In this document: piece by piece, positions 671 through 45,679 of the stretch
Layout of the letters: each line of letters begins with the position of its first letter
How positions within the stretch are numbered: the stretch's first letter is position 1
Source of the DNA: Amyelois transitella
Taxonomy: Eukaryota; Arthropoda; Insecta; Lepidoptera; Pyralidae
Direction: 5' to 3'
Length of the DNA stretch: 64,000 nucleotides
Assembly (NCBI RefSeq): GCF_032362555.1
Contig: NC_083506.1
Coordinates: forward strand, 11,641,501 to 11,705,500
Made by a program: the position numbers and the translations under genes
Notes under the pieces: model-generated
What the model saw: the letters and a program-made list of their open reading frames with translations, nothing else
What the model was told of the DNA's origin: nothing
The model's database searches: none

Positions 671-705
671 CTGTATTTACACTGCTCAGCAGCATTATCT
701 TCCAT
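671..705 (-). CDS. Candidate first coding exon (12 residues) of a minus-strand transcript
   Basis: On the minus strand an ATG at 705 opens MEDNAAEQCKY and reaches a strong donor, AG|GTAAGTGC, at 670. A plausible leader without further ATG precedes it (about 706-790). The exon has 35 coding bases, so it ends after two bases of a codon, exactly as ORP1 exon 13 (27376-27556) does. I infer that it may be an alternative first exon for a short ORP1 isoform whose lipid-binding exons lie left of the window. Vertebrate ORP1 is known to have such an internal-promoter short form. It could equally begin an unrelated gene. Confidence 0.45.
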
Positions 706-5464: not shown

Positions 5465-5590
5465 ATGAAATTTATTTATTCTTAATTGTAACAATTACAA
5501 TTCGTAAAGTAGAATAGGCGGACTTAATGCTAATAGCATTATCCAACAGTCTGCCATTGGGTTAAGCGGAGCACCTTTGTGTGGGCGATA
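5465..5590 (-). repeat. LINE 3'-end remnant
   Basis: GGCGGACTTAATGCTAATAG within an A/T-rich tail resembles the remnants at 850-1000 and 39420-39500. Confidence 0.4.
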
Positions 5591-6466
5591 ATAATAATGT
5601 AAAATAAACATACTTTCTATACCATTATACTATTAACCTATACTTAATATATAAAATACAATCAAAATCCACTATCACACAACACCGCGCACAAAAACTA
5701 GTCAGTTACCGTTTCCCCGCCCAAAATGTCCCGGCGAATACAGGTATTGATTTATGAGAGCATTTTCCAGGAATTATCGCACACAACCTCAGACCGATGC
5801 ACCGATAACGAGTATGTATGCAGATAGTATTATCACTTGCACTCGCTCAGCGAGCGAGCGAGAGATGGTCGTATCTAGTCGTCGCTATGTCTGTGACGGC
5901 GTACATCCACACAGATATGAAACTCGCATTATGATTGGTTATTGAATAGCTCCGTCTCGCTCTAGGCAAACTAAAATGAACGTGTGTGTGCAAAAATGTG
6001 CTGTTTTTCAAATTTCGATGTTTTCCTGTGTAATGAAAGCAAAAGATAGATACGGTGGCACATACCCTGGAGGGAATGAATCTAGTCGTCATTACATCTG
6101 TGACTCTTTTTAATTGTCTAATAAAATTATTACTCCTCCCCCAATTTGTTTTAATTGATAATCGGACGAAAGTCCCAACTATAATAATAATAAAAAAATA
6201 CATTTGCGTAAACACGCTCTTCGCTATGGCTTGATTTATGTGGAAAAAAAGAAAAATCCATTCGTCGCAAATGCCTTGAATTGTGCTTAAGCATTCTTAA
6301 TATCAAACAGCTAAGACCATTAAATTTAAGAAGTCAGTGCTATATATTTGGCGCAATGATCTGCTTATAGTAACAAAGGGCATCCCGGAAATATATCATT
6401 TTATTACATTAAATACCTAGATCTAGTAACTATTACCACATTCAATACAATAATTTCACTACTTAC

Positions 6467-6553
6467 AACCAGGTTTGTGACTTCAAACTCATCTTGATTG
6501 TCTTCATAGAATTTTGTCACATTAATTTCAAATTTTGATGTTACCGAGGGCAT
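6467..6553 (-). CDS. Cassette first exon, type A (29 codons)
   Basis: Opens MPSVTSKFEINV, continues through KFYEDNQDEFE and ends TNLV before GTAAGTAG. The exon is 87 bases and ends in phase 0. This is the last intact cassette before the left end of the array. Asn replaces the Lys found at residue 11 in other A copies. Confidence 0.65.
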
Positions 6554-6608
6554 ATTTTAGTAACAGTTTAAAAAATATTATTCAATATTAACAGAGTAAT
6601 CGGCAACA

Positions 6609-6730
6609 GGTTCGATCACTAAGAACCGCGCTTCAACACTGGCCAGCTACAGCCTCCTCGCCCGGATAGCCCCGGCGGCTGCAGGTATTGATTTATGAGA
6701 GCATTTCCTAGGAATTATCGCACACAACCT
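6609..6730 (-). promoter_or_regulatory. GC-rich cassette block (representative copy)
   Basis: This block carries GGTTCGATCACTAAGAACC, CTGGCCAG and a GGCCG-rich core followed by TATTGATTTATGAGAGC. It sits 56 bases upstream of the type A ATG. It contains a short GGTTC/GAACC inverted repeat and has almost the same sequence in every cassette whichever exon type follows. It is probably core promoter and/or 5' UTR. The transcription start is not known. Confidence 0.55.
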
Positions 6731-6780
6731 CAGACAGATGCACCGATAGCGGTGATGTATCCAAGTACTGTTATCTCTTG

Positions 6781-6801
6781 CACTCGCTCAGTGAGCGAGT
6801 G
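6781..6801. promoter_or_regulatory. Perfect dyad element (representative copy)
   Basis: Two 10-base arms, CACTCGCTCA and TGAGCGAGTG, flank a single G. The same dyad, perfect or with one to three changes, recurs in nearly every cassette (for example 8790-8809, 13281-13301, 18151-18171), always upstream of the GC block in minus-strand sense. It is likely a binding site for a dimeric factor. Confidence 0.5.
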
Positions 6802-6869
6802 AGATATGGTCATATCTAGTCATCGCTATATCTGTGGCGGCGTTCTTTGAACAGACGAGCGATATGCGT

Positions 6870-6882
6870 TTTGATTGGTTAT
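6870..6882 (-). promoter_or_regulatory. Inverted CCAAT box (representative copy)
   Basis: GATTGGTTAT on plus reads ATAACCAATC on the transcribed strand. One or two such boxes precede each dyad in the array, spaced about 70-100 bases away. Confidence 0.4.
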
Positions 6883-7326
6883 AAAAATATGCGTTATCTC
6901 CGTCTCATACCTTATATACTACAAAACGCTAAAAATGTAGATAATGAATATTCCTGAAGGAACTTTCTTAGACAAATTCTATCTATCCTGCACAATTTTA
7001 ATGAAACAAAGAGATTGGCGTAATTAGTCTTCGCTATATCGGTAACGACCTACATCGAAACGGACGGGGGACATATGTTTTTATTGGTTGCTAAATTATA
7101 GCCCGTTCTCCGTCCGTTTGTGTTGATTTATTCAAAAATGGGTAATTTCCGTTTTATTCAATTAATGACTTAGGTTTAGCTACCTTGCGAAAAACGTCAT
7201 TAAGCAAACGCAAAGCACATATTATTATCACGAGCATTCTTAAGTGGTTCTATATGTCAATTTATTTATAAAGCAATGGAAGTCGATGAAGCTATCTAAT
7301 AGAAAAATAATAATGTAGCTACTTAC

Positions 7327-7410
7327 AAATGAGTTTGTGATTTCATAATATTCTTGATTTTCGTCCAAGATATTAGTAACTTCTACTTCATATTTCGTTA
7401 ACAAAGGCAT
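7327..7410 (-). CDS. Cassette first exon, type B (28 codons)
   Basis: MPLLTKYEVEVT, then NILDENQEYYE, ending ITNSF before GTAAGTAGC. It has 84 bases in phase 0. Relative to type A it lacks one codon after residue 5. Confidence 0.65.
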
Positions 7411-8279
7411 GTTTAACTACAAAATGTATACTGAAGTCTAATTAGAATATAGTCAACCACTAAAAAACTAATCGGCAACAGGTTCGATCACTAAGAACCG
7501 CGCTTCAACACTGGCCAGCTACAGCCTCCTCGCCCGGACAGCCCCGGCCGCTGCAGGTATTGATTTATGAGAGCATTTCCCAGAAATTATCGCACACAAC
7601 CTCAGACAGATGCACCGATAGGGGGATGTATGCAGATAGTGTTATCACTTGCACTCGCTCAATGAGCGAGCGAGAGGTGGACGTATCTAGTCGTCGCTAT
7701 ATCTATGACGGCGTACATCCACACAGATATGAAACTCGCATTATGATTGGTTATTGAATAGCTCCGTCTCGCTCTACGCAAACTAAAACGAACGTGTGTG
7801 TACAAAAATGTACTGTTTTTCAAATGTCGCTCTTGTTTTCATGTGTAATGAAAGCAAAAGATAGATACGGTGGCACATACCCTGGAGGGGATGAATCTAG
7901 TCGTCATTACATCTGTGACACTTTTTAATTGGCTAATAAAATTATTACTCCTCCCCCAGTTTGTTTTAATTGATTATCGGAAGAAAGTCCCAACTATAAT
8001 AATAATAAAAATACTTTTGCGTAAACACGCCCTTCGTTATGCCTTGATTTATGTGGAAAAAAATAAAAATTCATTCGTCGCAAATGCCTTGATTTGTGCT
8101 TAAGCATTCTTAATATCAAACAGCTAAGACAATTTAATTTAAGTAGACAGTGCAATATATTTGGCGCAATGATCTGCTTATAGTAACAAAGGGCATCCCG
8201 GAAATATATCAGTTTATTACATAAAATTCCTAGATCTAGTAAGTATTACCAGATTCAATACAATAAATTCACTACTTAC

Positions 8280-8366
8280 AACCAGGTTTGTGACTTCAAA
8301 CCCATCTTGATTGTCTTCATAGAATTTAGTCACTTTAATTTCAAATTTTGATGTTACCGAAGGCAT
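8280..8366 (-). CDS. Cassette first exon, type A
   Basis: As the copy at 6467 but with Lys at residue 11 and Gly in place of Glu at residue 22 (DNQDGFE). It is in frame with the donor intact. Confidence 0.65.
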
Positions 8367-9342
8367 ATTTTAGTAACAGTTTAAAAAATATTATTCAATA
8401 TGAACAGAGTAATCGGCAACAGGTTCGATCACTAAGAACCGCGCTTCAACACTGGCCAGCTACAGCCTCCTCGCCCGGACAGCCCCGGCCGCTGCAGGTA
8501 TTGATTTATGAGAGCATTTCCCAGAAATTATCGCACACGACCTCAGACAGATGCACCGATAGGGGGGATGTATGCAGATAGTGTTATCACTTGCACGCGC
8601 TCAATGAGCGAGCGAGAGGTGGACGTATCTAGGATGTCGCTATATCTGTGAGGGCGTACTCCGTACAGACGCGAGTTATGCGTTTTGATTGGTTATTGAA
8701 ATATGAGTTATCTCCGTCTCCCTCATACCGTATTTCCTAAAAAAAAAACACCGATAGCGGTGATGTGTGCAAGTACTGTTATCTCTTGCACTCGCTCAGT
8801 GAGCGAGTGAGATATGGTCATATCTAGTCATCGCTATATCTGTGGCGGCGTTCTTTAAACAGACGAGCGATATGCGTTTTGATTGGATATTAAAATATGG
8901 TGTTATCTCCGTCTCGCTCATACCTTATATTCTAAAAAACGCTAAAAATGTCGATAAAGAATATTCCTGAAGGAACTTTCTTAGACAAATTCTATCTATT
9001 CTGCACACTTTTAATGAAACAAAGAGATTGGCGTAATAAGTCTTCGCTATATCGGTAACGACCTATGTAACTACATCAAAACGGACGGGAGACGTATGTT
9101 TTAAGTGGTTGCTAAATTATAGCCCGTTCTCCGTTCGTTTGTGTTGATTTATTAAAAAATAGGTCATTTTTATTTTATTCAATTAATGACTTAGATTTAG
9201 CTCCCTTGAGAAAAAACGTCATAAAGCATACGCATAGCTCATATTATTATCACGAGCATTCTTAAGTGTATGTTAATTTATTTATAAAGCAATAGATGTC
9301 GACGAAGCTATTTAATACAATAATAATAATGTAGCTACTTAC

Positions 9343-9426
9343 AAATGAGTTTGTGATTTCATAATACTCTTGATTTTCGTCCAAGATATTAGTAACTTCT
9401 ATTTCATATTTCGTTAACAAAGGCAT
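9343..9426 (-). CDS. Cassette first exon, type B
   Basis: MPLLTKYEIEVT and NILDENQEYYE, ending NSF. It is in frame, with the donor GTAAGTAGC intact. Confidence 0.65.
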
Positions 9427-10180
9427 TTTTACCCACAAAATGTATACTAAAGTCTTATTAGAAAATAGTCAACCACTAAAAAACAAATCGGCAACAGGTT
9501 CGATCACTAAGAACCGCGCTTCAACACTGGCCAGCTACAGCCTCCTCGCCCGGACAGACCCGGCCGCTGCAGGTATTGATTTATGAGAGCATTTTCCAGA
9601 AATTATCGCACACAGCCTCGGACAGATGCACCGATAGCGGTGATGTAAGCAAATAATGTTATCTCTTGCACTCGCTAAGTGAGCGAGTGAGAAATGGACG
9701 TATCTAGATGACGCTATATCTGTGACGGCGTACTTCGCACAGACGCGAGTATGCGTTTTAATTGGTTATTAAAATATGTGTTATCTCCGTATCATGCCTT
9801 ATATTCTAAAAAAACGCTAAAAATAATTAATATTTCTGAAAGAACTTTTCTACGCAATTTCTATCTATTCTGCGCACATTTAATGAAACAAAGAGATTGG
9901 CGTATTATTCTTCGCTATATCGTTGACGACCGGCGTAACTACATCAAAACAGACGAGAGACATATGTATTGATTGGTTGCAAAATTATAACCCGTTCTCC
10001 GTCCGTTTAAATTGATTTATGAATAATAAAAATGGAAATTTTCGGTGTTTATTCAATAAATAATTTAGGTTTAGCTCCCTTGATAAAAAACGTCATAAGT
10101 GGTTCTATATGTTAATTTATTTATAAAGCAGCGGATGTCGATGAAGCTATTTTTACAATAACAATAATGTAGCTACTTAC

Positions 10181-10264
10181 AAAAGTGTTTGTGATTTCAT
10201 AATATTCTTGACTTTCGTCCAAGATATTAGTAACTTCTACTTCATATTTCGTTAACAAAGGCAT
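10181..10264 (-). CDS. Cassette first exon, type B (Ser variant)
   Basis: Has LDESQEYYE where most B copies have LDENQEYYE, and ends NTF. The same variant is at 12197 and 15247, which marks these three as recent duplicates. Confidence 0.65.
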
Positions 10265-11133
10265 TTTACCCACAAAATGTATACAAAAGTCTTATTTGAA
10301 AATAGTCAACCACTAAAAACTAATCGGCAACAGGTTCGATCACTAAGAACCGCGCTTCAACACTGGCCAGCTACAGCCTCCTCGCCCGGACAGACCCGGC
10401 CGCTGCAGGTATTGATTTATGAGAGCATTTCCCAGAAATTATCGCACACAGCCTCAGACAGATGCACCGATAGAAGGGATGTATGCAGATAGTGTTATCA
10501 CTTGCACTCGTTCAATGAGCGAGCGAGAGGTAGCCGTATCTAGGATGTCGCTATATCTGTGAGGGCGTACATCCACACAGATATGAAACTCGCATTATGA
10601 TTGGTTATTGAGTAGCTCCATCTCGCTCTACGCAAACTAAAACGAACGTGTGTGTGCAAAAATGTACTGTTTTTCAAATGTCGCTCTTGTTTTCATGTGT
10701 AATGAAAGCAAAAGATAGATACGGTGGCACATACCCTGGAGGGGATGAATCTAGTCGTCATTACATCTGTGACACTTTTTCATTTGCTAATGAAATTATT
10801 ACTCCTCCCCCTGTTAGTTTTAATTGATAATCGGAAGAAAGTCCCAACTATAATAATAATAAAATACTTTTGCGTAAACAAGCTCTTCGCTATGCCTTGA
10901 TTTATGTGGAAAAAAAATAAAAATCCATTCGTCGCAAATGCCTTGATTTGTGCTTAAGCATTCTTAATATCAAACAGCTAAGACCATTTAATTTAAGTAT
11001 TCAGTGCAATATATTTGGCCCAATGATCTGCTTATAGTAACAAAGGGCAACCCGGAAATATATAATTTTATTACATAAAATACCTAGATCTAGTAATTAT
11101 TACCAGATTCAATACAATAAATTCACTACTTAC

Positions 11134-11220
11134 AACCAGGTTTGTGACTTCAAACTCATCTTGATTGTCTTCATAGAATTTAGTCACTTTAATTTCAAAT
11201 TTTGATGTTACCGAAGGCAT
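11134..11220 (-). CDS. Cassette first exon, type A
   Basis: The canonical A form, MPSVTSKFEIKV with DNQDEFE and TNLV, is in frame with an intact donor. Confidence 0.65.
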
Positions 11221-11579
11221 ATTTTAGTAACAGTTTAAAAAATATTATTCAATATTAACAGAGTAATCGGCAACAGGTTCGATCACTAAGAACCGCGCTT
11301 CAACACTGGCCAGCTACAGCCTCCTCGCCCGGACAGCCCCGGCGGCTGCAGGTATTGATTTATGAGAGCATTTCCCAGAAATTATCACACACAACTCCCA
11401 TATAGATGCACTGATAGTGGGGATGAAAGCAAATAATGTTATCTCTTGCACTCGCTCAGTGAGCGAGTGAGAAATGGACGTATCTAGACGACGCTATATC
11501 TGTGACGGCGTACTTCACACAGACGCGAGTATGCGTTTTAATTGGTTATTAAAATATGTGTTATCTCCGTATCATGCCT

Positions 11580-11830
11580 TTTTTTTATTTAATTTAAGTA
11601 ACAGTTTAAAAAATATTATTCAATATTAACAGAGTAATGAGCAACAGGTTCGATCACTAAGAACCGCGCTTCAACACTGGCCAGCTACAGCCTCCTCGCC
11701 CGGACAGACGCGGCCGCTGTAGGTATTGTTTATGAGAGCATTTCCTAGAAATTTACGCACACGACATCAGACAGATGCACCGATAGAGGGGATGTATGCA
11801 AATACTGTTATCTCTTACTCTCTAAAAAAC
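11580..11830 (-). pseudogene. Cassette lacking its exon
   Basis: The A-type leader (AACAGTTTAAAAAATATTAT) and GC block (from 11647) are present. Just before the ATG position, at about 11580-11600, the sequence switches to a T-rich junction and another sub-repeat, so the exon and donor are gone. The dyad is also truncated. Confidence 0.6.
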
Positions 11831-12196
11831 GCTTAAAATAATTAATATTTCTAAAAGAACTTTTCTATGCAATTTCTATCCATTCTGCGCACATTTAATG
11901 AAACAAAGAGATTGGCGTATTATTCTTCGCTATATCGTTGACGACCGGCGTAACTACATCAAAACAGACGAGAGACATATGTATTGATTGGTTGCAAAAT
12001 TATAACCCGTTTTCCGTCCGTTTAAATTGATTTATGAATAATAAAAATGGGAATTTTTGGTGTTTATTCAATAAATAATTTAGGTTTAGCTCCCTTGATA
12101 AAAAAACGTCATAAGTGGTTCTATATGTTAATTTATTTATAAAGCAGCGGATGTCGATGAAGCTATTTTTACAATAACAATAATGTAGCTACTTAC

Positions 12197-12280
12197 AAAA
12201 GTGTTTGTGATTTCATAATATTCTTGACTTTCGTCCAAGATATTAGTAACTTCTACTTCATATTTCGTTAACAAAGGCAT
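12197..12280 (-). CDS. Cassette first exon, type B (Ser variant)
   Basis: Same protein as the copy at 10181. The surrounding 600 bases are also nearly identical to that unit. Confidence 0.65.
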
Positions 12281-12966
12281 TTTACCCACAAAATGTATAC
12301 AAAAGTCTTATTTGAAAATAGTCAACCACTAAAAACTAATCGGCAACAGGTTCGATCACTAAGAACCGCGCTTCAACACTGGCCAGCTACAGCCTCCTCG
12401 CCCGGACAGACCCGGCCGCTGCAGGTATTGATTTATGAGAGCATTTCCCAGAAATTATCGCACACAGCCTCGGACAGATGCACCGATAGCGGGGATGTAT
12501 GCAGATAGTGTTATCACTTGCACTCGCTCAATGAGCGAGCGAGAGGTGGACGTATCTAGTCATCGCTATGTCTGCGGCGACCGGCGTACATCGAAACAGA
12601 CGGGAGGCATGCGTAATGATTGGTTAATAAAATGTTTGTTAGCTCCGTCTCTCTCTTTGTATCCAAAAGGCTTGAAAATGGGATATTGAATATATAATGA
12701 AGTAACTTTCTTCGATATAAACAGCAAATTTAATTAAACCAAGAGATGGACTTAATTATAACCGGTGCCACTAATTGTATTGATTCATCGTAAAAAAAGA
12801 TAAAGTAAATACTTATATGTTCCTTTACTTAGATTTTAGCTCCCCTAAGGAAAAAGATTTGAAAAACTTCAATAACAAAATGCAGAACTTATAAACTATT
12901 AAAAGGATAAGTAGCTCTTTGTATTAATAATATTTAGTTCGTAAAGATAATGAAGTTGCTACTTAC

Positions 12967-13034
12967 AAATGATATTCACGATTTTCGTCCAATTCATGAG
13001 TAACGTCAATTTCATATTTCGTTACAAAAGGCAT
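12967..13034 (-). pseudogene. Cassette first exon, type C, 16-bp deletion
   Basis: Opens MPFVTKYEIDVTHELDENRE, but 16 bases before the donor are missing compared with 16020-16103. The exon is 68 bases and ends in phase 2 instead of 0. The donor itself is kept. Confidence 0.6.
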
Positions 13035-13439
13035 TTTTAATCACCGATGTATACGGAATAATATCTTATCGATAAATTAATCAATCACTAATGAACTAAT
13101 CGACAGAAGGTTCGATCACTAAGAACCGCGCTTCAACACTGGCCAGCTACAGCCTCCTCGCCCGGACAGGCCCGGCCGCTGCAGGTATTGATTTATGAGA
13201 GCATTTCCTAGAAATTTACGCACACGACCTCAGACAGATGCACCGATAGCGGGAATGTATGCAAATACTATTATCTCTTGCACTCGCTCAGTGAGCGAGT
13301 GAGATATGGTCATATCTAGTCGTCTCTATATCTGTGGCGGCGTACTTTGAACAGACGCGGGACATGCGTTTTGAGCTGTGTATGAGCTCTGTCACCCTCA
13401 TACCTTATATTAAAAAAAACGCAAAAAGTTTCTACTTAC

Positions 13440-13523
13440 AAATGAGTTTGTGATTTCATAATATTCTTGATTTTCGTCCAAGATATTAGTAACTTCTATT
13501 TCATATTTCGTTAACAAAGGCAT
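13440..13523 (-). CDS. Cassette first exon, type B
   Basis: MPLLTKYEIEVT with ENQEYYE, ending NSF. It is in frame. The spacer downstream of its donor is very short (about 40 bases) before the next sub-repeat, unlike other B units. Confidence 0.62.
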
Positions 13524-14210
13524 TTTTACCCACAAAATGTATACAAAAGTCTTATTTGAAAATAGTCAACCACTAAAAACTAATCGGCAACAGGTTCGAT
13601 CACTAAGAACCGCGCTTCAACACTGGCCAGCTACAGCCTCCTCGCCCGGACAGACCCGGCCGCTACAGGTATTGATTTATGAGAGCATTTCCCAGAAATT
13701 ATCGCACACAGCCTCGGACAGATGCACCGATAGCGGGGATGTATGCAGATAGTGTTATCACTTGCACTCGCTCAATGAGCGAGCGAGAGGTGGACGTATC
13801 TAGTCATCGCTATGTCTGCGGCGACCGGCGTACATCGAAACAGACGGGAGGCATGCGTAATGATTGGTTAATAAAATGTTTGTTAGCTCCGTCTCTCTCT
13901 TTGTATCCAAAACGCTTGAAAATGGTATATTGAATATATAATGAAGTAACTTTCTTCGATATAAACAGCAAATTTAATTAAACCAAGAGATGGACTTAAT
14001 TATAACCGGTGCCACTAATTGTATTGATTCATCTTAAAAAAAGATAAAGTAAATACTTATATGTTCCTTAACTTAGATTTTAGCTCCGGTAAGAAAAAAT
14101 ATTTGAATAACTTCATTAACAGAATGCAGAACTTATAAACTATTAAAAGGATAAGAAGCTCTTTGTATTAATAATATTTAGTTCGTAAAGATAATGAAGT
14201 TGCTACTTAC

Positions 14211-14234
14211 AAATGATATTCACGATTTTCGTCC
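14211..14234 (-). pseudogene. Cassette first exon, type C, 3' fragment only
   Basis: The donor and the last 24 exon bases of a C copy, carrying the same 16-bp deletion as 12967, are fused at CGTCC to a spacer sub-repeat (GTTTAAATTGATTTATG). The ATG half is absent. Confidence 0.6.
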
Positions 14235-14410
14235 GTTTAAATTGATTTATGAATAATAAAAATGGGAATTTTCGGTGTTTATTCAATAAATAATTTAGGT
14301 TTAGCTCCCTTGATAAAAAACGTCATAAGTGGTTCTATATGTTAATTTATTTATAAAGCAGCGGATGTCGATGAAGCTATTTTTACAATAACAATAATGT
14401 AGCTACTTAC

Positions 14411-14494
14411 AAAAGTGTTTGTGATTTCATAATATTCTTGATTTTCGTCCAAGATATTAGTAACTTCTATTTCATATTTCGTTAACAAAGGCAT
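14411..14494 (-). CDS. Cassette first exon, type B
   Basis: MPLLTKYEIEVT with DENQEYYE, ending NTF. It is in frame with an intact donor. Confidence 0.65.
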
Positions 14495-15246
14495 TTTACC
14501 CACAAAATGTATACTAAAGTCTTATTAGGAAATAGTCAACCACTAAAAAACAAATCGGCAACAGGTTCGATCACTAAGAACCGCGCTTCAACACTGGCCA
14601 GCTACAGCCTCCTCGCCCGGACAGACCCGGCCGCTGCAGGTATTGATTTATGAGAGCATTTTCCAGAAATTATCGCACACAGCCTCGGACAGATGCACCG
14701 ATAGTGGGGATGAAAGCAAATAATGTTTTCTCTTGCACTCGCTCAGTGAGCGAGTGAGAAATGGACGTTTCTAGACGACGCTATATCTGTGACGGCGTAC
14801 TTCACACAGACGCGAGTATGCGTTTTAATTGGTTATTAAAATATGTGTTATCTCCGTATCATGCCTTATATTCTAAAAAACGCTAAAAATAATAAATATT
14901 TCTGAAAGAACTTTTCTACGCAATTTCTATCTATTCTGCGCACATTTAATGAAACAAAGAGATTGGCGTATTATTCTTCGCTATATCGTTGACGACCGGC
15001 GTAACTACATCAAAACAGACGAGAGACATATGTATTGGTTGGTTGCAAAATTATAACCCGTTCTCCGTCCGTTTAAATTGATTTATGAATAATAAAAATG
15101 GGAATTTTCGGTGTTTATTCAATAAATAATTTAGGTTTAGCTCCCTTGATTAAAAACGTCATAAGTGGTTCTATATGTTAATTTATTTATAAAGCAGCGG
15201 ATGTCGATGAAGCTATTTTTACAATAACAATAATGTAGCTACTTAC

Positions 15247-15330
15247 AAAAGTGTTTGTGATTTCATAATATTCTTGACTTTCGTCCAAGATATTAGTAAC
15301 TTCTACTTCATATTTCGTTAACAAAGGCAT
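15247..15330 (-). CDS. Cassette first exon, type B (Ser variant)
   Basis: Carries LDESQEYYE and ends NTF, as at 10181 and 12197. Confidence 0.65.
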
Positions 15331-16019
15331 TTTACCCACAAAATGTATACAAAAGTCTTATTTGAAAATAGTCAACCACTAAAAACTAATCGGCAACAGG
15401 TTCGATCACTAAGAACCGCGCTTCAACACTGGCCAGCTACAGCCTCCTCGCCCGGACAGACCCGGCCGCTACAGGTATTGATTTATGAGAGCATTTCCCA
15501 GAAATTATCGCACACAGCCTCAGACAGATGCACCGATAGCGGGGATGTATGCAGATAGTGTTATCACTTGCACTCGCTCAATGAGCGAGCGAGAGGTGGA
15601 CGTATCTAGTCATCGCTATGTCAGCGGCGACCGGCGTACATCGAATCAGACGGGAGGCATGCGTAATGATTGGTTGATAAAATGTTTGTTAGCTCTGTCT
15701 CTCTCTTTGTATCCAAAACGCTTGAAAATGGGATATCGAATATGTTATGAAATATTTTAATACGAAATAAACAGCAAATTTAATTAAACCAAGAGATGGA
15801 CTTAATTATAACCGGTGCCACTATTTGTATTGATTCATCGTAAAAAAGATAAAGTAAATACTTATATGTTCCTTAACTTAAATTTTAGCTCCCCTAAGAA
15901 AAAAGATTTGAAAAACTTCATTAACAGAATGCAGAACTTATTACCTATGAAATGGATAAATAAGTAGCTCTTTGTATTAATAATATTTAGTTAGTAAAGA
16001 TAATGAAGTTGCTACTTAC

Positions 16020-16103
16020 AAACGTGTTTATTACTTCATGATATTCACGATTTTCGTCCAAGTCACGAGTAACGTCAATTTCATATTTCGTTACAAAAGG
16101 CAT
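16020..16103 (-). CDS. Cassette first exon, type C (28 codons)
   Basis: MPFVTKYEIDVT, then RDLDENREYHE, ending VINTF before GTAAGTAG. It is in frame. With 19479 it is one of only two intact C copies. Confidence 0.65.
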
Positions 16104-16924
16104 TTTTAATCACTGATGTATACGGAATAATGTCTTATCGATAAATTAATCAATCACTAATGAACTAATCGACATAAGGTACGATCACTAAGAACCGCGC
16201 TTCAACACTGGCCAGCTACAGCCTCCTCGCCCGGACAGACCCGGCCGCTGCAGGTACTGATTTATGAGAGCATTTCCCAGAAATTATCGCACACAACCCC
16301 CAGACAGACGCACTGATAGTGGGGATGTGTGCTCATACTGTTATCACTTACACTCGCTCAATGAGCGAGCGAGAGGTAGCCGTATCTAGATGTCGCTATA
16401 TCTGTGACGGCGTAGGTACTCCGTACAGACGCGAGATATGCGTTTTGATTGGTTATTGAAATATGAGTTTTCTCCGTCTCCCTCATACCCAAATTTTCCT
16501 AAAAAAAAAACGCTAAAAATGTCGAAACTGAATATTTCTGAAGGAACTTTCCTAGACAAACTCTATCTCTTCTGCGCACATTTAATGAAACAAAGAGATT
16601 GACGTATTATTCTTCGCTATATAGTTGACGACCGGCGTAACTACATCAAAACACGACGAGAGACATATGTATTGATTGCCTGATAAAATATAACCCGTTC
16701 TCCGTCCGTTTAAATTTATTTGTTAATAATAAAAATGAGCAATTCGGTGTTAATTCAATAAATGACTTAGGTTTAGCTCCCTTGAGAATAAACGTCATAA
16801 AGCATACGCACAGCTCATATTATTATCACGAGCATTCTTAAGTGGTTCTATATGTTAATTTATTTATAAAGCAATGGATGTCGATGAAGCTATTTAATAC
16901 GATAATAATAATGTAGCTACTTAC

Positions 16925-17008
16925 AAATGTGTTTGTGATTTCATAATATTCTTGATTTTCGTCCAAGATATTAGTAACTTCTACTTCATATTTCGTTAAC
17001 AAAGGCAT
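16925..17008 (-). CDS. Cassette first exon, type B
   Basis: MPLLTKYEVEVT with DENQEYYE, ending NTF. It is in frame. Confidence 0.65.
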
Positions 17009-17837
17009 GTTTAACTACAAATTGTATACTAAAGTCTTATTAGAAAATAGTCAACCACTAAAAAACTAATCAGCAACAGGTTCGATCACTAAGAACCGCG
17101 CTTCAACACTGGCCAGCTACAGCCTCCTCGCCCGGACAGCCCCGGCCGCTGCAGGTATTGATTTATGAGAGCATTTCCCAGAAATTATCGCACACAACCT
17201 CAGACAGATGCACCGATAGCGGGGATGTATGCAGATAGTGTTATCACTTGCACTCGCTCAATGAGCGAGCGAGAGGTGGACTTATCTAGTCATCGCTATA
17301 TCTGTGACGGCGTACATTCACACAGATATGAAACTCGCATTATGATTGGTTATTGAATAGCTCCGTCTCGCTCTACGCAAACTAAAACGAACGTGTGTGT
17401 GCAAAAATGTACTGTTTTTCAAATGTCGCTCTTGTTTTCATGTGTAATGAAAGCAAAAGATAGATACGGTGGCACATACCCTGGAGGGGATGATCTAGTC
17501 GTCATTACATCTGTGACACTTTTTAATTGGCTAATAAAATTATAACTCCTCCCGTTGGTGTTTGTTTTAATTGATAATCGGAAGAAAGTCCCAACTATAA
17601 TAATAATAATAAAATATTTTTGCGTACACACGCTCTTCGCTATGCCTTGATTTATGTGGAAACAAAGAAAAATCCATTCGTAGCAAATGCCTTGATTTGT
17701 GCTTAAGCATTCTTAATGCATGCGCAATGATCTGCTTACAGTAACAAAGGGCATCCCGGAAATATATAATTTTATTACATAAAATACCTAGATCTAGTAA
17801 TTATTACCAGATTCAATACAATAAATTCACTACTTAC

Positions 17838-17924
17838 AACCAGGTTTGTGACTTCAAAATCATCTTGATTGTCTTCATAGAATTTAGTCACTTTAATTTC
17901 AAATTTTGATGTTACCGAGGGCAT
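17838..17924 (-). CDS. Cassette first exon, type A
   Basis: A-type exon with Asp at residue 22 (DNQDDFE). It is in frame with the donor intact. Confidence 0.65.
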
Positions 17925-18693
17925 ATTTTAGTTACAGTTTAAAAAATATTATTCAATATGAACAGAGTAATCGGCAACAGGTTCGATCACTAAGAACCGC
18001 GCTTCAACACTGGCCAGCTACAGCCTCCTCGCCCGGACAGACCCGGCCGCTGCAGGTATTGATTTATGAGAGCATTTCCTAGGAATTATCGCACACAGCC
18101 TCAGGCAGATGCACCGACAGCAGTGATGTATGCAAGTACTGTTATCTCTTGCACTCGCTCAGTGAGCGAGTGAGATATGGTCATATCTAGTCGTCGCTAT
18201 ATCTGTGGCGGCGTACTTTGAACAGACGCGGGATATGCGTTTTGAGCTGTGTGTGAGCTCTGTCTCCCTCATACCTTATATTCTAAAACCAAAACGCTAA
18301 AAATGTCAATATTGAATAATTCTGAAGGAACTTTCAGACAAATTCTATCTATTCTGCGCACATTTAATGAAACGAGTTTGGCGTATTAACTCGTCGCTTC
18401 ATGGGTGACGACTAGCGTATCTACATCGAAACAGACGGGAGACATTTGTTCTGAATGGGGCTGGATTATTATCCGTCCCCCTATTTTTATTGATTTATTT
18501 TGATAGATAATTAAGGTTTATATTCAATTAATGACTTAGGTTTTACTACCTTGAAGAAAAACTTCATAAAGCAAACGCATAGCACATATTATTATCACAA
18601 ACATTCATAAGTGGTTCTATATGTTAATTTATTTATAAAGCAATGGATGTCGATGAAGCTATTTAATACGATAATAATAATGTAGCTACTTAC

Positions 18694-18777
18694 AAATGTG
18701 TTTGTGATTTCATAATATTCTTGATTTTCGTCCAAGATATTAGTAACCTCTACTTCATATTTCGTTAACAAAGGCAT
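18694..18777 (-). CDS. Cassette first exon, type B
   Basis: MPLLTKYEVEVT with DENQEYYE, ending NTF. It is in frame. Confidence 0.65.
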
Positions 18778-19478
18778 GTTTAACTACAAAATGTATACTT
18801 ATTACAAAATGTCTTATTAGAAAACAGTCAACCACTAAAAAACAAATCGGCAACAGGTTCGATCACAAAGAACCGCGCTTCAACACTGGCCAGCTACAGC
18901 CTCCTCGCCCGGACAGACCCGGCCGCTGCAGGTATTGATTTATGAGAGCATTTCCCAGAAATTATCGCACACAACCTCAGACAGATGCACCGATAGGGGG
19001 GATGTATGCAGATAGTGTTATCACTTGCACTCACTCAATGAGCGAGCGAGAGGTGGACGTATCTAGTCATCGCTATGTCTGCGGCGACAGGCGTACATCG
19101 AAACAGACGGGAGGCATGCGTAATTATTGGTTAATAAAATGTTTGTTAGCTCCGTCTCTCTCTTTGTATCCAAAACGCTTGAAAATGGGATATTGAATAT
19201 ATAATGAAGTAACTTTCTTCGATATAAACAGCAAATTTAATTAAACCAAGAGATGGACTTAATTATAACCGGTGCCACTATTTGTATTGATTCATCGTAA
19301 CAAAAGATAAAGTAAATACTTATTATGTTCCTTAATTTAGATTTTAGCTCCCCTAAGAAAAAAGATTTGAAAAGCTTCATTAACAGAATGCAGAACTTAT
19401 AACCTATGAAATGGATAAATAAGTAGCTTATTGTATTAATAATATTTAGTTAGTAAAGATAATGAAGTTGCTACTTAC

Positions 19479-19562
19479 AAACGTGTTTATTACTTCATGA
19501 TAATCACGATTTTCGTCCAATTCATGAGTAACGTCAATTTCATATTTCGTTACAAAAGGCAT
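19479..19562 (-). CDS. Cassette first exon, type C
   Basis: MPFVTKYEIDVT, then HELDENRDYHE, ending VINTF. It is in frame. His-Glu here versus Arg-Asp at 16020 shows that the two intact C copies differ in protein. Confidence 0.65.
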
Positions 19563-20229
19563 TTTTAATCACCGATGTATACGGAATAATGTCTTATCGA
19601 TAGATTAATCAATCACTAATGAACTAATCGACAAAAGGTACGATCACTAAGAACCGCGCTTCAACACTGGCCAGCTACAGCCTCCTCGCCCGGACAGACG
19701 CGGCCGCTACAGGTATTGATTAATGAGAGCATTTCCCAGAAATTATCGCACACAACCCCCAGACAGATGCACTGATAGCGGGGATGTATGCAGATACTGT
19801 TATCACTTACACTCGCTCAATGAGCGAGCGAGCCAGAGATGGACGTATCTAGTCGTCACTATATCTGTGACGGCGTACATCTAACAGACGCAAGACTTGC
19901 GTTTAGATACATCTGTCTCTTTCATACATTAATTTTTAAGAACGTTTGAAATATGTATCATGAGCAAATATGTCCACCTCTTCTGAGCTTATTAATTAAC
20001 ATGTAGAATTGGTAAAAAATATAACATATTCGTAATAACTGTTATTCAGGTCTTGGCTTTAGTAGTAAATAAGAAAAATTAATTTGCGTCAAATGCTTAG
20101 ATTAGGTATACCTAATAAAAAATTCTATAAGTTAATTGTCGCTCATTTCATTATACTTAGTAACTGTTTGGGATAATATTTTAACATAAAATATAATAAA
20201 AAAATTGGAAAAAATATTTCGATACTTAC

Positions 20230-20316
20230 AAACATGTTCTTGAATTCAACGTAATCTTGATTATCTTCGTAGAAATTAGTTACTTTAATTTCAAATTTAG
20301 ATCTCGCCGAGGGCAT
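20230..20316 (-). CDS. Cassette first exon, divergent type A'
   Basis: MPSARSKFEIKV, then TNFYEDNQDYVE, ending FKNMF before GTAAGTAT. It has the 29-codon length of type A but the terminal Phe of B and C, and its GC block (about 20384) is the most changed. It may be the oldest unit. It lies first in transcriptional order. Confidence 0.62.
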
Positions 20317-20649
20317 ACTTAGTAACCGATGTTTATATGTCCTCAATAAATATATTCAAGCACTAAATAACCAATAGGCAACAGGTACGAACGCGAAGCT
20401 CCGCGCACTAGCACTGGGAGACCTGCTACAGCCTCCTCGCCCGGACGCGGCGAGTACAGGTATTGATTTATGGGAGAATTTCCCAGAAATTATCGCACAC
20501 AGCCCCAGAGACATAGCTCAGACAGATGCATTGATAGCGGAGGTGTATGCAACTACTGTTATCTCTACCACTTGCTCAGTGTGCGCTCGAGAGACAGATA
20601 TACTGTCAACCGCGTATCAAGTTGCCCTATAGAACTCTTTAACACTGTA

Positions 20650-21384
20650 ATAGAGGCGAATTTGCGGTGAATGACAACCGACCTAAGTTGATATGCTGGT
20701 GACTGTACTTATCTGTACATAGACGTGTTTACAAGCACACCTGTGTATGTTTACAAACTATGAAACTCTGTGTTTGATTGGTTAAAATGTGTAACCCCGT
20801 CTCCCTCGAACCTTGATGTCTAAAAACGAAAAACGATAGTTGTTTTTCCAAATATGTCTATCTCTTGTACGCATGTTTAATGAAAGCGAGGGATGGCGTA
20901 TCTAGTCATCGCTATATCTATGTGGACCGGCGTACATCGCAACGAGCATTTTAATTGGTTAATAAATGTCTGGTACTATTATGGAATAGAAAGAAATGAC
21001 TTATAACATACCGAAGAACGTAGCTGGGACACTAGAAGTGTCCTTTGCTAAGGCGAGCGTTCGGCATTCTGTTTAAATCATTGTCCATTTAAAAATGTGT
21101 CCAAAGTGGAGCTGTAAGATTAGTTATGTCATGCGATCCCATAATGCCCACAAAATGGCCGTCCGTAAAAAGGATTTCTCATTCTAAAAAGACAAAAAGT
21201 AAACTAAGGTTTGTCGGACGAAAAAGAACATTGTACCATGAGAATGGTTAAATAATGACGAAATAATATTGATTACTTCGATTCCTATAAGCTTACTGCT
21301 ACTGAATGTAAACTTCCCATTACTTATAATTATGAATTCTACCAAAGTGCAGATTTTTTTAAATTAGTTCAATTTAATTTTAAT
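20650..21384. other. Array border and unassigned sequence
   Basis: Worn pieces of the cassette spacer (ATTGGTTAA boxes, GCGTATCTAGTCATCGCTAT) continue to about 20970. Beyond this no gene is supported. A 57-base open stretch at 21012-21068 has splice-like borders but does not match the phase of any neighbouring exon. Confidence 0.4.
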
Positions 21385-27375: not shown

Positions 27376-30300
27376 CCTGAGGTTTGTAGTCTTCTTATAC
27401 GGTCTCGCGTTTCTGTACACGTTCCCCCCTTGCGATACTAGCGTCCCTCGGGAACTGGCCGGGCTGATGGCCGTGTGGAGTGACTGAGGTGACCCGGACG
27501 AGCCGGATAACCGCCGGATACGGGATTCTACCTCCTCGTTAGTGGGGGTTTCGTCACCTAAACAAAGTTATGATTGATTTATTCCACACAAACATACAAA
27601 AATACAAATCTTTCCTCTTTATTATTAGTGTGGATGTAACGGTTTGCATATGAATTTTCAGCGGTTGACACTTCATACTCTTACTCTGTATCATTGACTA
27701 CCTACGTTACTTGTATGACGTGACTCTTAATAGTTAAAAAAATTAAGACGGTTTCTGTCCTAAACAAGATTATCTATAGCTTATCTTATAAATGAAAAGA
27801 TACATTCAATTAAAGATTCCGCTACGCCTCTTCTTACTAGTCAAAAGCCTGGGAGCAGTGTATACTATCCAGACTGCAGATTTTGTTCACTGATAGAGTA
27901 ATATTTAAATAATTATGAATTTAAAATGGAGTTTCCCATCACATTTCAAATGAATAAAAAACATTTATGGCGTCAAGTTTGACGGCTTCTGTTGTGCAGC
28001 GGTAGTGCGCTTGTCTGTGACACCGGTGGTCCCAGGTTCGAATCTCGGCCAGGGCAGGATGAGAAACGAACATTCTCTAATTAGCCTGGGTAGTAAATGT
28101 ATATCTATATAAGTTTTTATTACAAAATATCGTATCGTTGAGTTAGTTTCTTGTAATACATGTCTCGAACTTTCTTCGAGGTTAACTCAATCTGTGTAAT
28201 CTGTCCCTTATGTATATTTGCCTATGTCTGACATGTGCCGTGTAGTTCTGGCACCAATATAAATAGGATCACTCCATCTCTTTCCTATGGATTTCGTAAA
28301 AGGCGACTAAGGGATAGGCTTATAAACTTGGCATTCTTCTTTTAGGCAATAGGCTAGCAACCTGCAATGAATCTCAATTCTAACATCAAGCCAAACAGCT
28401 GAACGTGGCCTGTCAGTTTCTCACGGCTGCTGTCTCTGTCCACCCCGCATGAGAAATAGACGTGATTGTATACGCATGAACGAGTTACCATTTCGACTGC
28501 CGACGGGCGTCCGCCTGGTGAGATCCGGCGAGCTTTGTTAGTTAAGCCAAACAGCTGAACGTGGCCTGTCAGTTTCTCAAGGCTGCTGTCTCCGTTCACC
28601 CCGCATGAGAAATAGACGTGATCATATACGTATGAACGAGTTACCATCTCGACTGCCGACGGGCGTCCGCCTGGTGAGATCCGGCGAGCTTCCCCAGGGG
28701 CTCAGCGCGCCCAAAGGACTCGACAGGCCCGCCGTCACCAACGTATCATCCTCGTCTTCAGACTCTGAAATAAATTAAAAGAATTCTCACTAATACTGCC
28801 CTGGTATAACTAAAATGCCGTCATCTGCCAAATACTTGTTTTAAGTAAAACGTCAAAAACTGCGGTAAAAATTTAAACTGATGCCATTCATCAATGAGAA
28901 CTATTGCCTATTTATGACTTAAAGTTACCAAAAAGTCGTATATACAGATCGAAAGAGATTTTTTTTTTATTTTACGACGACGTTTACGACGACGACGAAA
29001 GAGATGGAGTGGTCCCATTCTTTTTTGTATTGGTGCCGGGAACCACACGGACATGCCGGGAACCACACAGACAGTAATATTAATTAATATTACAATTTAA
29101 CAAATTAGACTAATATTACAAGTGCGAAACAAAGTTAATTTGTTTGTTATTCATGCCGTACCCGGCACCAATATAAAATACGGCATCTCTTTCACATGGA
29201 TGTCGTAAAATGCTACTAAGGGATATACTATAAACTTAGGATTCATCTTGTATGGCATAACTAATTAATAAAAGATATATCGTTGTCTTAGAAAAATAAA
29301 AATGCATACCATTGTAAACATCAAAGAAGTTTTCTTTCGACTCATTATGCGACGATTTCTTCTTTCGCTTGCTCTGAAACAATAAGACGGAAATAATACC
29401 TGAAATATTTTTGTTATTTTTCTACCTAACTATATAAGTCGAAAAATGACGAAATTTTCTACATATTTTTCATTTGGCAATCCTTTCTCGGATTTGTCAC
29501 ATGAATGGCGAGAAACCAGTTTGTAAATTAAAATTATAAAATTCAGTACTAATTCCTCATTTAGTTTGTAAATTAAAATTATAAAATTCGGTACTAATTA
29601 CTAATTTCTCATTTGTCACTCAAAGATTTCTCGGAATTCTTACTGGTATGCGAGAAACCCGTTTGTACATTAAAATATTTTAATTTGTTCTAATTAAGTG
29701 ATTTACAATTGAAAGTATGGTTATAACTTTCTCGCTTTAAACTTTTAGACATACAAGTATTTAATCCCAAAATTGTGTTAACATTATTATTAGCTGTTGC
29801 TCGCAACTTCGTCCGTCTTGAAGCTCTATAAATTTTAACTTAATGTAATTCCATAGACCAAGAAACGTTACCGAAAAGTTTCTTGAAAATCCGTTACGTA
29901 GTTTTTGCAAGAAAGACTAACAAACACACATCCTAACAAACTTTCGCTTTATATATTAATAGGATAAGTAGAAACTAGGATTGACTATAATTATTACTAA
30001 CCTTAGTGAGTTCTTCAGCTACGGACATCTCTAATGCGTGATGCGTCCGCGCAAGCGCTGCCAACGCCTCTTCCAGTACACGATTTCTCTCTACCTGCGA
30101 ATTTTAAAACTTGTGTTTATTGCATTTAAAATAACACCTATCACTTAAAAGTTAGGATACAAATTTCTATTTTGAGCAGATCAAATTATTATTGTGTAAA
30201 CATCTATATCTTTTGCAACTCTTCCCATTGGGATTCTTTTTTAGGCGATGCTAACTATCAACCTGTCACTATTTTAATCTAAATTCCATACAGCTGAACA

Positions 30301-36300: not shown

Positions 36301-39300
36301 CATTCACGCAGCTGAGTGTCCAACAACGCTAGGCTGTTCGTAGCCGCTGTCAGCGCGTCTTGCATGGATCCTATTTAAAAAAAAAAATATTCTAAACTTA
36401 ATTAACATAAATATGATATGTGCCGTATGGTTCGAAATAAAAAAAAGGATTAGGGCCACTCCATCTCTTTTCCATGGATATCGTTTAAAGGCGACTAAGG
36501 GATAGGCTTATAAACTTGGGATACCTACTTCTTAAAGGCGATGGGCTAACAACATGTTACTATTTGAATCTCAATTCTATTATATAGTCAAACAGCTGAA
36601 CGTCACCTGTCAGTCTTTCAAGACTTCTTGCTCTGTCTACCCCGCAAGGGATATAGACGTGATGTATGTGACGTATGTATGAACATTTTCGAAGACGCGT
36701 GTCAACATACATACATACATAAAATCACGCCTCACTTTCCCGGAGGGGTAGGCAGAGACTACCTCTTTCCAATGTTACGCGTGTCAACAACGCATTATTA
36801 TGACGTGAAACGGGACGGCGATATAGTCTTTCGTTATACAAAAATGGCGTCGAGTGTGACATTTAAAAATTTATCACGTTACATTGGTGCCGGGAACCAC
36901 ACCGTCATAAATAAACACATGTTTTTCTTTAAGGAGTAAAAGACCAATATTGGAACTAATGACTGAACCTAAAGGTTTGTTAAAGATCAATATTGGAACT
37001 AATGACTGAACCTAAAGGTTTGTTAAAGATCAATATTGGAACTGATGACTGAACCTAAAGGTTTGTAAAAGACCAATATTGAAACTAATGACTGAACCTA
37101 AAGGTTTGTTAAAGATCAATATTGGAACTGATGACTGACCTAATGGTTTGTTAAAGATCAATATTGGAACTAATGACTGAACCTAAAGGTTTGTTAAAGA
37201 TCAATATTGGAACTAATGACTGAACCTAAAGGTTTGTAAAAGACCAATATTGGAACTGACCTAAAGGTTTGCACTCATCGTCGAGGTCTTCCGTGGCCTC
37301 CCTCGCCGTGTCCGGGGAAGCCCCGGCCCAGAGATAGTGGCCGGAGTACGCTATATGCTCATTCAGGGCAGTTATCCAGCTCTGAAACACAATTGTCTTT
37401 TTTAATCTATACTTACTAATATTATAAAGCTGAAGAGTTTGTTTGTCTGTTTGTTTGAAAGCGCTAATCTCAGAAACTGCTGGTTTTAATTGAAAAATTC
37501 TTTTTGCGTTGAATAGACCATTTATAGAGGAAGGCTTAAGGCTATATAACATCACGCTGAAACTATTAGGAGCGAAGAAATAATGAAAAATGTGAAAAAA
37601 AAAACGGGGAAAATTATTCATACTTGAGGGCTTCAATGATGCCCAAAATAACTATTCCACCCCTGACCTGGATTCGAACTGCAAACGCAACTGTCTTCTG
37701 CCTACCCGACGTTTAGTTGTAGCAAGGTGATTTTTTAATATAGGAAAGTCTTTTGCAGTACCTACTTAAAAGAAATAGACTTTATGCGTTCATTATAGCT
37801 AGATGAAACATGAGCTACTTCTAGAAATTCCCATAAGAACAAGTATAGCGGCAATAAATCTATATCTGTGCCGTGCGGTTTCCGACTCAGAATAGAACCA
37901 ATCCAAATCTTTCCCATGGATGTCGCAAAAGCCGACTAAGGTATAGGCTTATAAACTTGGGATTCATCTTTTAGACTTGCGACCTATTTGAATCTCAATA
38001 CCATATTTGAGCTATGCAGCTGAAAGTGGCCATTTAGGCTTTATGAGACTGTTGGATCTATTTACCCCGTAAGGAATACAGACGTGATTTTATGCATATG
38101 TGAGGAACAGCCAATCTTTGGGAATCCCCGTCATTGAAACCGATCATAATCAAAGCAGGCGCAGTATCGAGCACGGTGGCGCCATCTAGGTAACTTCACG
38201 ACTTAATTGACGAAGTGGTTGTATTTTTGCCTCTAAACCACGGGTTCTGGGTTCGAACTGTGGGCAGGTCATGATCCAAAACGATCTTTTACTGATTGGC
38301 ATACTATAATTAGTTCTTACATGGTATAGTTGAGTTAGTGGCCCATAACCTAAATCTCGAACTTACTTTGGGGCTAGTTCATTTTGTGTACTTTTTTCTG
38401 TGCAAAACTTATAAAAAAAATAATATTTATCACTGACCTGTCTACAGCCCACCACATCGTTCTCCGTGTGAGGAACGGCCAGTCTATGAGAATCCCCGTC
38501 ACTGAAGCCGATAACGATCAATGCTGGTTCTGTATCGGGCGCGGTGACAGTGGCGCCATCTAGGTAACTTCACGATTTGTTTTGCCTAAGTGGTTACGTT
38601 TTATATCACTATATTACTGATCCTTGATACGTCTCACTGTCAGATCATGATGGAAAACGATCTTTTACTGATTGGCATACAAGTACTTACATGCTTTAGT
38701 TGAGTTAGTGATCCATAACCTAAATCTCGAACTTACTTTGAGGCCTGTTCAATCTCTGTATTTTTTTTCTGTGCAAAACTTATAAAAAAAAATATTTATC
38801 ACTGACCTGTCTACAAGCTACCACATCGTTCTCCGTGTGAGGAACGGCCAGTCTATGGGAATCCCCGTCACTGAAGGCGATCACGATCAACGCCGGCTCT
38901 GTGTCGGGCGCGGCGACAGTGGCGCCATCTAGGTAGCTGCGGGCGCGCCACCGTCCGCCCACGCGGGCGGCCTCCGCACGGGAACCGTAGTACAGAAGCA
39001 CCCCCCTTTGGAGGACTGCCTGGAATTAATTTTGTGGTTTGACTTTATAAAATTTGAAGTGACTGGCAGTATAGACAACTCAATTTGATGACACTTTCTC
39101 ATAGATAATTATTATTTTTTTAAAGAAATTTACAGTCATGGATACAAGTCTTTCAATGCCCCTCTTGAATTTTTATTTATTTATTACTATCTGTTGCCCA
39201 GAATTTTGTTATCTGTAAAAGTTCATATAAAAGCTGCCCCTTAGGAGGGTAGGGATGAAGAAATTTTTGTAAACCAGTTTTTAAGTTGGACCTAACTAAT

Positions 39301-45237: not shown

Positions 45238-45679
45238 AAAAACAAAGTGTGTGCTAGCTTATCTGCTCTGTTTTTGTTTCGAGATTAAAAGATAGTACCT
45301 ATGCATTTTATCCATAATTTTGATTCAACATTGCTGACGATATTATAAAATGATTTTCAAGGGTAAGCTATCGATAGTCTACTATCGATAGTCTGGCAAC
45401 ACTACAGTGAAGTTGTCAAAACGGTCAATTAAAAAAAGTCAAAAATATCAAAACCAATAATTTCTTACCACTACGGTATTGAATACAAAATCGATTGTTT
45501 TTCGACGAAAACTGTCATCAAGGGAATAACCAGTCCTGTCACTCAGTGTCAAACAAGTTGCAAAAGTTTTCGCCGGTTGACTTGTTTGTTGTTTTTCTTA
45601 TTTGAATGTTGTTCTTTTACATAAAATCACGCCTCTTTCCTCTTTGTTGTTCTTTTAATTTACAAATACTTGAAACACA
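45238..45679 (+). other. Upstream region of the ZAD zinc-finger gene
   Basis: Contains GCTATCGATAGTCTACTATC repeats (TATCGATA, a DREF-type DRE core) near 45368-45395 and a 25-base scrap of the LINE tail near 45620-45645. Probably holds promoter and 5' UTR, but no start site can be fixed. Confidence 0.4.

Follow-up and report, generated by a model that had tools for sequence, protein, structure and literature searches.

In this study, we describe a tandem array of short exons with promoter-like blocks in the moth Amyelois transitella (Lepidoptera, Pyralidae). It lies in a 64,000-nucleotide stretch of contig NC_083506.1 (assembly GCF_032362555.1, positions 11,641,501 to 11,705,500 of the forward strand), referred to below as the window. 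The array comprises 17 minus-strand units, each with a conserved promoter-like block and a short ATG exon that ends at a splice donor, and is nested in sense orientation in one intron of ORP1, an OSBPL1A-type gene. We regard this single-locus array of promoter-like blocks and short coding exons within ORP1 as genuine, and we conclude that it is not a bank of ORP1 N-termini. It is probably transcribed. In our preferred reading, to which we give an even chance, these would be short coding first exons with promoters of their own, forming a set that is specific to this locus and runs sense-wise within the 33-kb host intron.

The minus-strand ATG exons with a GTAAGT donor span positions 6467 to 20316 and are as follows:

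6467..6553, minus: cassette exon B1, 87 nt, phase 0, MPSVTSKFEINVTKFYEDNQDEFEVTNLV
7327..7410, minus: cassette exon A1, 84 nt, phase 0
8280..8366, minus: cassette exon B2, 87 nt, phase 0
9343..9426, minus: cassette exon A2, 84 nt, phase 0
10181..10264, minus: cassette exon A3, 84 nt, phase 0
11134..11220, minus: cassette exon B3, 87 nt, phase 0
12197..12280, minus: cassette exon A4, 84 nt, phase 0
12967..13034, minus: cassette exon Cx, 68 nt, 16-nt deletion, phase 2
13440..13523, minus: cassette exon A5, 84 nt, phase 0, chimera
14411..14494, minus: cassette exon A6, 84 nt, phase 0
15247..15330, minus: cassette exon A7, 84 nt, phase 0
16020..16103, minus: cassette exon C1, 84 nt, phase 0, extra ATG 72 nt upstream of its own ATG
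16925..17008, minus: cassette exon A8, 84 nt, phase 0, MPLLTKYEVEVTNILDENQEYYEITNTF
17838..17924, minus: cassette exon B4, 87 nt, phase 0
18694..18777, minus: cassette exon A9, 84 nt, phase 0
19479..19562, minus: cassette exon C2, 84 nt, phase 0
20230..20316, minus: cassette exon D, 87 nt, phase 0, the most divergent of all units and the one farthest upstream

Eleven exons measure 84 nt, five 87 nt and one 68 nt. All begin with MP, as in the peptides MPLLTKYE... and MPSVTSKFE..., and four sequence types can be distinguished: A with nine near-identical copies (9/17), B with four, C with three, one of them broken, and D with one. The donor reads GTAAGTA in every copy, and 16 of the 17 exons are open and end in phase 0; in the remaining one, Cx, the deletion has broken the frame. 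An initial annotation, made from the sequence alone, had counted about 18 promoter plus first-exon units. The tandem array is confirmed, while the number of exon copies is 17: the row at 19811-19880 (70 nt) was dropped, its ATG...GTAAGT being a chance match within a block and lacking the MP start. With the exception of the 68-nt Cx, all copies agree with its description of ATG exons of 84 or 87 nt followed by GTAAGT.

A conserved block sits behind each of the 17 exon units. One example copy and two blocks that lack an exon are:

17009..17310, minus: promoter-like block and leader of A8, with a CTCGCTCATTGAGCGAG dyad, a GTCCGGGCGAGGAGGCTGTAGC core and a TTAGT-like start; CCAAT just upstream
11627..11822, minus: orphan promoter block that no exon follows
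5684..5899, minus: terminal degenerate promoter block, likewise exon-less, bordered at 5498-5596 by a dispersed element

In the promoter blocks, for example at 17240-17280, the dyad occurs together with GAGC repeats and a TTCTGGGAA half-palindrome, motifs that may resemble known binding sites. An additional partial block at 8700-8848 stands in tandem with the block of B2 (195-bp tandem repeat).

In the 327-Mb genome, where the repeat-search counts are lower bounds, the promoter-like block gave at least 20 matches, every one at the array locus. The same holds for a 44-mer (at least 18 matches) and for the core 22-mer, which at up to three mismatches was matched at least 18 times (17 exact, one with one mismatch; reversed control 0); the A-type and B-type peptides were likewise matched at the array locus only. 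The initial annotation had named units dispersed elsewhere in the genome as a transposon as the finding that would overturn its reading, and the confinement of all matches to one locus shows that the array is not a dispersed transposon. Although the units are tandem and near-identical and a dispersed element adjoins the terminal block copy, we therefore attach only the slightest probability to a dispersed or endogenous mobile element, all the more as the exact 22-mer was found in none of the viral contigs searched. The adjoining fragment at 5498-5596 does belong to a dispersed element: out of 836 candidates, 150 were scored, and every one of these, this site included, matches. A structured RNA gene was not indicated either, as one block copy, when folded, reached z = 0.40 against shuffles and Rfam gave one sub-threshold match.

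Duplications within the array exceed a unit in length, as with 1342 nt at 95.8% identity; shorter, more recent ones are also present (803 nt at 97.8%), and some block copies have lost their exon. From this pattern, the array appears to have turned over by unequal exchange, with exon and donor retained. In the A5 unit (13440-13523 plus spacer), an A-type exon is followed soon after the donor by a C-like intron, and exchange has thus occurred near the donor. The long high-identity duplications and the blocks without exon also support an alternative explanation. The blocks would then be copies of a regulatory sequence, be it an enhancer, a boundary or a promoter, that unequal crossing-over has multiplied, and the ATG exon would be carried along as a passenger without protein function.

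This alternative has to be weighed against the distribution of conservation within the units. One representative per type (A8, B4, C1, D) was compared, and five of the six possible pairs gave identities of 0.71-0.87 for the block, 0.57-0.78 for the leader, 0.67-0.82 for the exon and 0.88-1.00 for the donor octamer; over the ~80 intron nucleotides that follow, identity drops to 0.40-0.47. Such a break of conservation at the donor is the pattern expected of an exon under selection, and it agrees with the earlier proposal that reading frame and donor are maintained. Apart from the 16-nt loss, the sole exon indel in the alignment comprises 3 nt. Within type A (eight copies, the chimera A5 left out), the exon is the least variable segment, with 6/84 variable columns compared to 23/78 in the leader and 20/78 in the intron (p = 1e-4, the related copies not being independent). 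An A at position -3 precedes the cassette ATG in 17/17 copies, and the leaders, 68-91 nt long from the assumed TTAGTGATCG start, are free of ATG in 16/17. Over the six type pairs, differences number 41, 34 and 65 at codon positions 1, 2 and 3, an excess at the third position, and dN/dS, the ratio of nonsynonymous to synonymous change, is clearly below 1 in the pairs with D only (0.38, 0.50 and 0.18).

Several observations weigh against a set of coding exons. The B-type exon is no less variable than its flanks (5/87 compared to 2/55 in the leader and 8/82 in the intron; p = 0.79), and the C1 leader holds an upstream ATG. In a rough simulation of neutral change, each of the four types stayed open in 16-33% of runs together, and open frames alone are for this reason weak evidence. 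Among A, B and C, dN/dS is not clearly below 1 (~0.7-0.8 for A-C, 0.9 for A-B, 1.0 for C-B), and C1 and C2 differ by three amino-acid changes and no silent one. Finally, the cassette peptides had no homologue at E <= 10 in two protein searches with 121 candidates of ~264-840 aa and 12 candidates of 63-200 aa; the database was clustered at 90%, which may hide isoforms of a long protein that differ at the N-terminus alone. Amplified regulatory DNA with a passenger exon would account for the dN/dS values and the missing homologues; it fits less well with an exon and donor that are conserved between types next to an intron that is not, with the low variability of the A-type exon and with the frame intact in 16/17 copies. 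On balance, we place it on the unlikely side, though still to be weighed.

The gene surrounding the array was reconstructed by splicing exons by hand, with the flanking sequence examined to window -60 kb. The downstream exons encode an oxysterol-binding domain (ORD; Pfam PF01237, E 4.1e-131), which among solved structures is closest to that of human ORP1 (E 2.7e-130). Ankyrin and PH exons are found upstream, giving the order ankyrin, PH, ORD on one strand, and the product matches moth and butterfly proteins, for example at 92% identity in Dendrolimus and 87% in Plodia, each over 93% of the query. A search for the FFAT motif pattern gave no match. The first ORD exon is located at window -5819 to -6039 (L001:3960-4180), and the exons within the window are:

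671..705, minus: ORP1-short first exon, MEDNAAEQCKY(R), phase-2 donor
27377..27557, minus: ORP1-long linker exon, DETPTNEEVESR...PYKKTTNLR, phase-2 donor
38783..39025, minus: open frame containing an ORP1-long PH-domain exon
39617..39762, minus: ORP1-long exon, ankyrin end to PH start
40280..40424, minus: ORP1-long ankyrin-repeat exon

The linker exon joins the first ORD exon in frame, giving ...PYKKTTNLRTSLPVAQF..., and bounds with it an ORP1-long intron of ~33 kb. The 35-nt ORP1-short exon is also in frame with the ORD exon, and its peptide MEDNAAEQCKY resembles the N-terminus of a Heliothis protein (P0001) and, less, of a Danaus protein (P0005). As the array lies between the linker exon and the ORP1-short exon, all of it falls within this one intron, in sense orientation.

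The initial annotation had proposed that the array offers its variable N-termini to one shared downstream body, and ORP1 is the sole body found downstream. Its ORD exon has a phase-2 acceptor, so that two bases are needed from the preceding exon; the linker and ORP1-short exons supply them, the intact cassettes do not. When joined to ORP1, the cassettes A8, B4, C2 and D are out of frame and run into a stop in the second ORD exon after 138-139 aa. In the broken copy Cx alone, the frame continues into ORP1. Owing to this mismatch, the idea of many N-termini for one body loses its natural candidate, and a direct ORP1 N-terminus is rejected on phase. Splicing to ORD exon 3, with two exons skipped, would be in frame at the cost of the domain start and is not favoured. 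Visual inspection of the open frames of at least 80 aa on the minus strand to -60 kb, a scan that a small exon could escape, revealed no other downstream host gene; frames of 1450, 208, 170 and 138 aa resemble mobile-element pieces by eye, no family search having been made and shorter frames being untested.

Some points nevertheless favour a protocadherin-like arrangement, in which the cassettes would provide ORP1-short with alternative N-termini and splice to the body of ORP1, perhaps through the 35-nt exon as an internal exon. The array and the ORP1-short exon share a strand, the array being 5-20 kb upstream, and the acceptor of the ORD exon scores 5.5, in the 99.7th percentile of AGs (all acceptor scores derive from home-made weights, not from a trained model). 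Inserting the 35-nt exon, read from its ATG, behind A8 would restore the ORP1 frame, but the acceptor this requires scores -2.8, compared to 1.3 to 6.1 for ten ORP1 acceptors, and the insertion was rejected. Direct splicing fails in the four intact types tested, with which the remaining intact copies share their phase, and the one copy in ORP1 phase is a broken one. Furthermore, a moth protein (P0007) extends upstream of MENN with leader-like residues, read as one uninterrupted exon. We therefore judge this arrangement to be quite unlikely.

The wrong frame could itself be put to use if the array acted as a decoy comparable to a long undecoded transcript isoform (LUTI). Up to 17 upstream promoters would then fire across the ORP1-short promoter and silence ORP1-short through out-of-frame transcripts. 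These would splice to the strong ORP1 acceptor and yield the truncated products of 138-139 aa calculated for the four intact types; each cassette ATG would capture ribosomes, and copy number would set the strength of repression. This reading, which we hold to be highly doubtful, would account for the retention, in 16/17 copies, of a frame that does not suit ORP1.

For self-promoted first exons, splice partners other than ORP1 have to be considered. Between 6400 and -5700, GC content and splice signs yielded no candidate for a phase-0 partner exon, a further point against our preferred reading. Of 650 AGs scored in this interval, five reach 5 or more and two (6066 and -679) exceed the 5.5 of the ORD exon; the phase-0 frames behind these five are 31, 21, 13, 5 and 1 codons long. 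The high-scoring acceptor at window -679 (C2:11640821) opens a 21-codon phase-0 frame with AATAAA or ATTAAA 63 nt on and is a candidate distant partner for the cassettes. Unspliced peptides were dismissed, the A-type extensions beyond the donor differing in length and reading.

Acceptors within the units were searched by scoring AGs 50-330 nt after the donor. In type A, a candidate of the form CAAG/G (the slash marking the splice point) is present at +101 to +143 in eight of nine copies and scores best in A2, A3, A4, A6, A7 and A9; type C has CTTAG/GGGAGCTAAA at +121-125 in 3/3 copies, and D has a candidate at +117, in both types the best-scoring AG. These acceptors raise the possibility that the array consists of complete two-exon micropeptide genes, in which the unit's own acceptor, ~100-145 nt beyond the donor, would lead into a tiny second exon. 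The predicted reading of this exon is GAKPKLFIE-stop in A3, A4, A6 and A7 and GS-stop in C, and several A copies carry AATAAA next to the stop; in the eight aligned A copies, the exon follows the pattern [GV][AV]K[PS]K[SL][LF]IE, and the tail is without indels. In comparisons of acceptor segments (13 pairs, 300 shuffles each), the similarity of A2-C1 and A2-C2 was exceeded by 0/300 shuffles and that of A3-C2 by 2/300.

Other results argue against such genes. The candidate acceptor ranks only second in A1 and A8 and is absent from A5, and type B offers a weak one only, at +105. The candidate A second exon is more variable than the intron (0.133 vs 0.074 in five A sequences), the common stop is lost in A8 and A9, and the four types have unrelated tails. 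The pairs A2-D, C1-D and C2-D were not significant; B1-A2 was (1/300), but the position in B, +41, is too close to the donor. Complete micropeptide genes are thus on the unlikely side, though still to be reckoned with.

Under the preferred reading of self-promoted coding first exons, each block would act as a promoter, and transcription would start ~70-90 nt before the cassette ATG. Translation would begin at this ATG, and the exon would be spliced at GTAAGT, each transcript encoding a near-identical or type-specific N-terminus of 28-29 residues. The splice partner may be a phase-0 exon in the same intron or an acceptor in the unit's own spacer ~100-145 nt downstream, as in a two-exon micropeptide gene; we give both about equal weight.

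Several further features were observed around the array. Degenerate partial copies of the first ORD exon (73-74% identity) stand in tandem in the next intron at window -6098 to -6215 and -6296 to -6399 (L001, minus strand). The same intron contains about nine tandem copies of a ~170-bp repeat at window -6553 to -8022 (L001), with a further partial copy near window -8390 to -8482. Inside the ORP1-long region, an open frame of 1059 aa of the long interspersed nuclear element (LINE) type, with reverse transcriptase and endonuclease, occupies 32269-35445 on the minus strand. Beyond it are a zf-AD zinc-finger gene with a weak C2H2 match (45674-46714, plus) and a short-chain dehydrogenase exon (49335-49709, minus).

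Different known systems share single aspects with this array. Human ORP1 has a long (ORP1L) and a short (ORP1S) isoform. The host gene likewise has two forms, as expected of an OSBPL1A/ORP1 gene: one combines ankyrin repeats, PH domain and ORD, and the other, a short ORD form, starts from a separate first exon. The cassettes, by contrast, do not fit the phase of the gene. LUTIs are described for single upstream promoters, in contrast to the up to 17 promoter-like blocks found here. In abstracts on LUTIs, a start upstream on the same strand is reported, and an upstream open reading frame would block reading of the downstream one (PMC8153250, PMC6469420). The insect gene 2mit, according to its abstract, is a single intronic nested gene oriented opposite to its host (PMC3786989); both cases involve gene-like units in a host intron, the array with 17 sense-strand promoter-exon units. 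For Drosophila Gr39a, the abstract describes large alternative exons spliced with small conserved ones and subject to exon duplication, pseudogenisation and loss (PMC2204066); there, four to five large receptor exons are involved instead of 17 tiny ones.

The closest resemblance is to clusters of the protocadherin and UGT1 type, which are outlined in the respective abstracts as tandem first exons, each behind its own promoter (PMC1885805; UGT1 layout PMC3325998). Part of the protocadherin-like layout suggested by the initial annotation stands, namely the tandem related first exons, each behind its own promoter-like block and 16/17 in one phase. The array departs from it in exons of just 28-29 codons, in a lower diversity, most copies being near-identical, in its place inside another gene's intron, and in that no in-phase constant exons were found. 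A literature search covering titles and abstract openings found no report of such an array, and what is new is its position inside one 33-kb ORP1 intron, between the ORP1-long linker exon and the ORP1-short first exon. If expressed, it would represent a large insect array in which units of promoter and first exon have multiplied at a single site within a conserved lipid-transfer gene. It would then provide a natural system for studying how tandem promoters compete or are chosen, and a test of whether tiny coding exons arise and persist without an obvious partner. An expressed array would also raise the question of whether the copy number of upstream units tunes the short isoform of the host gene.

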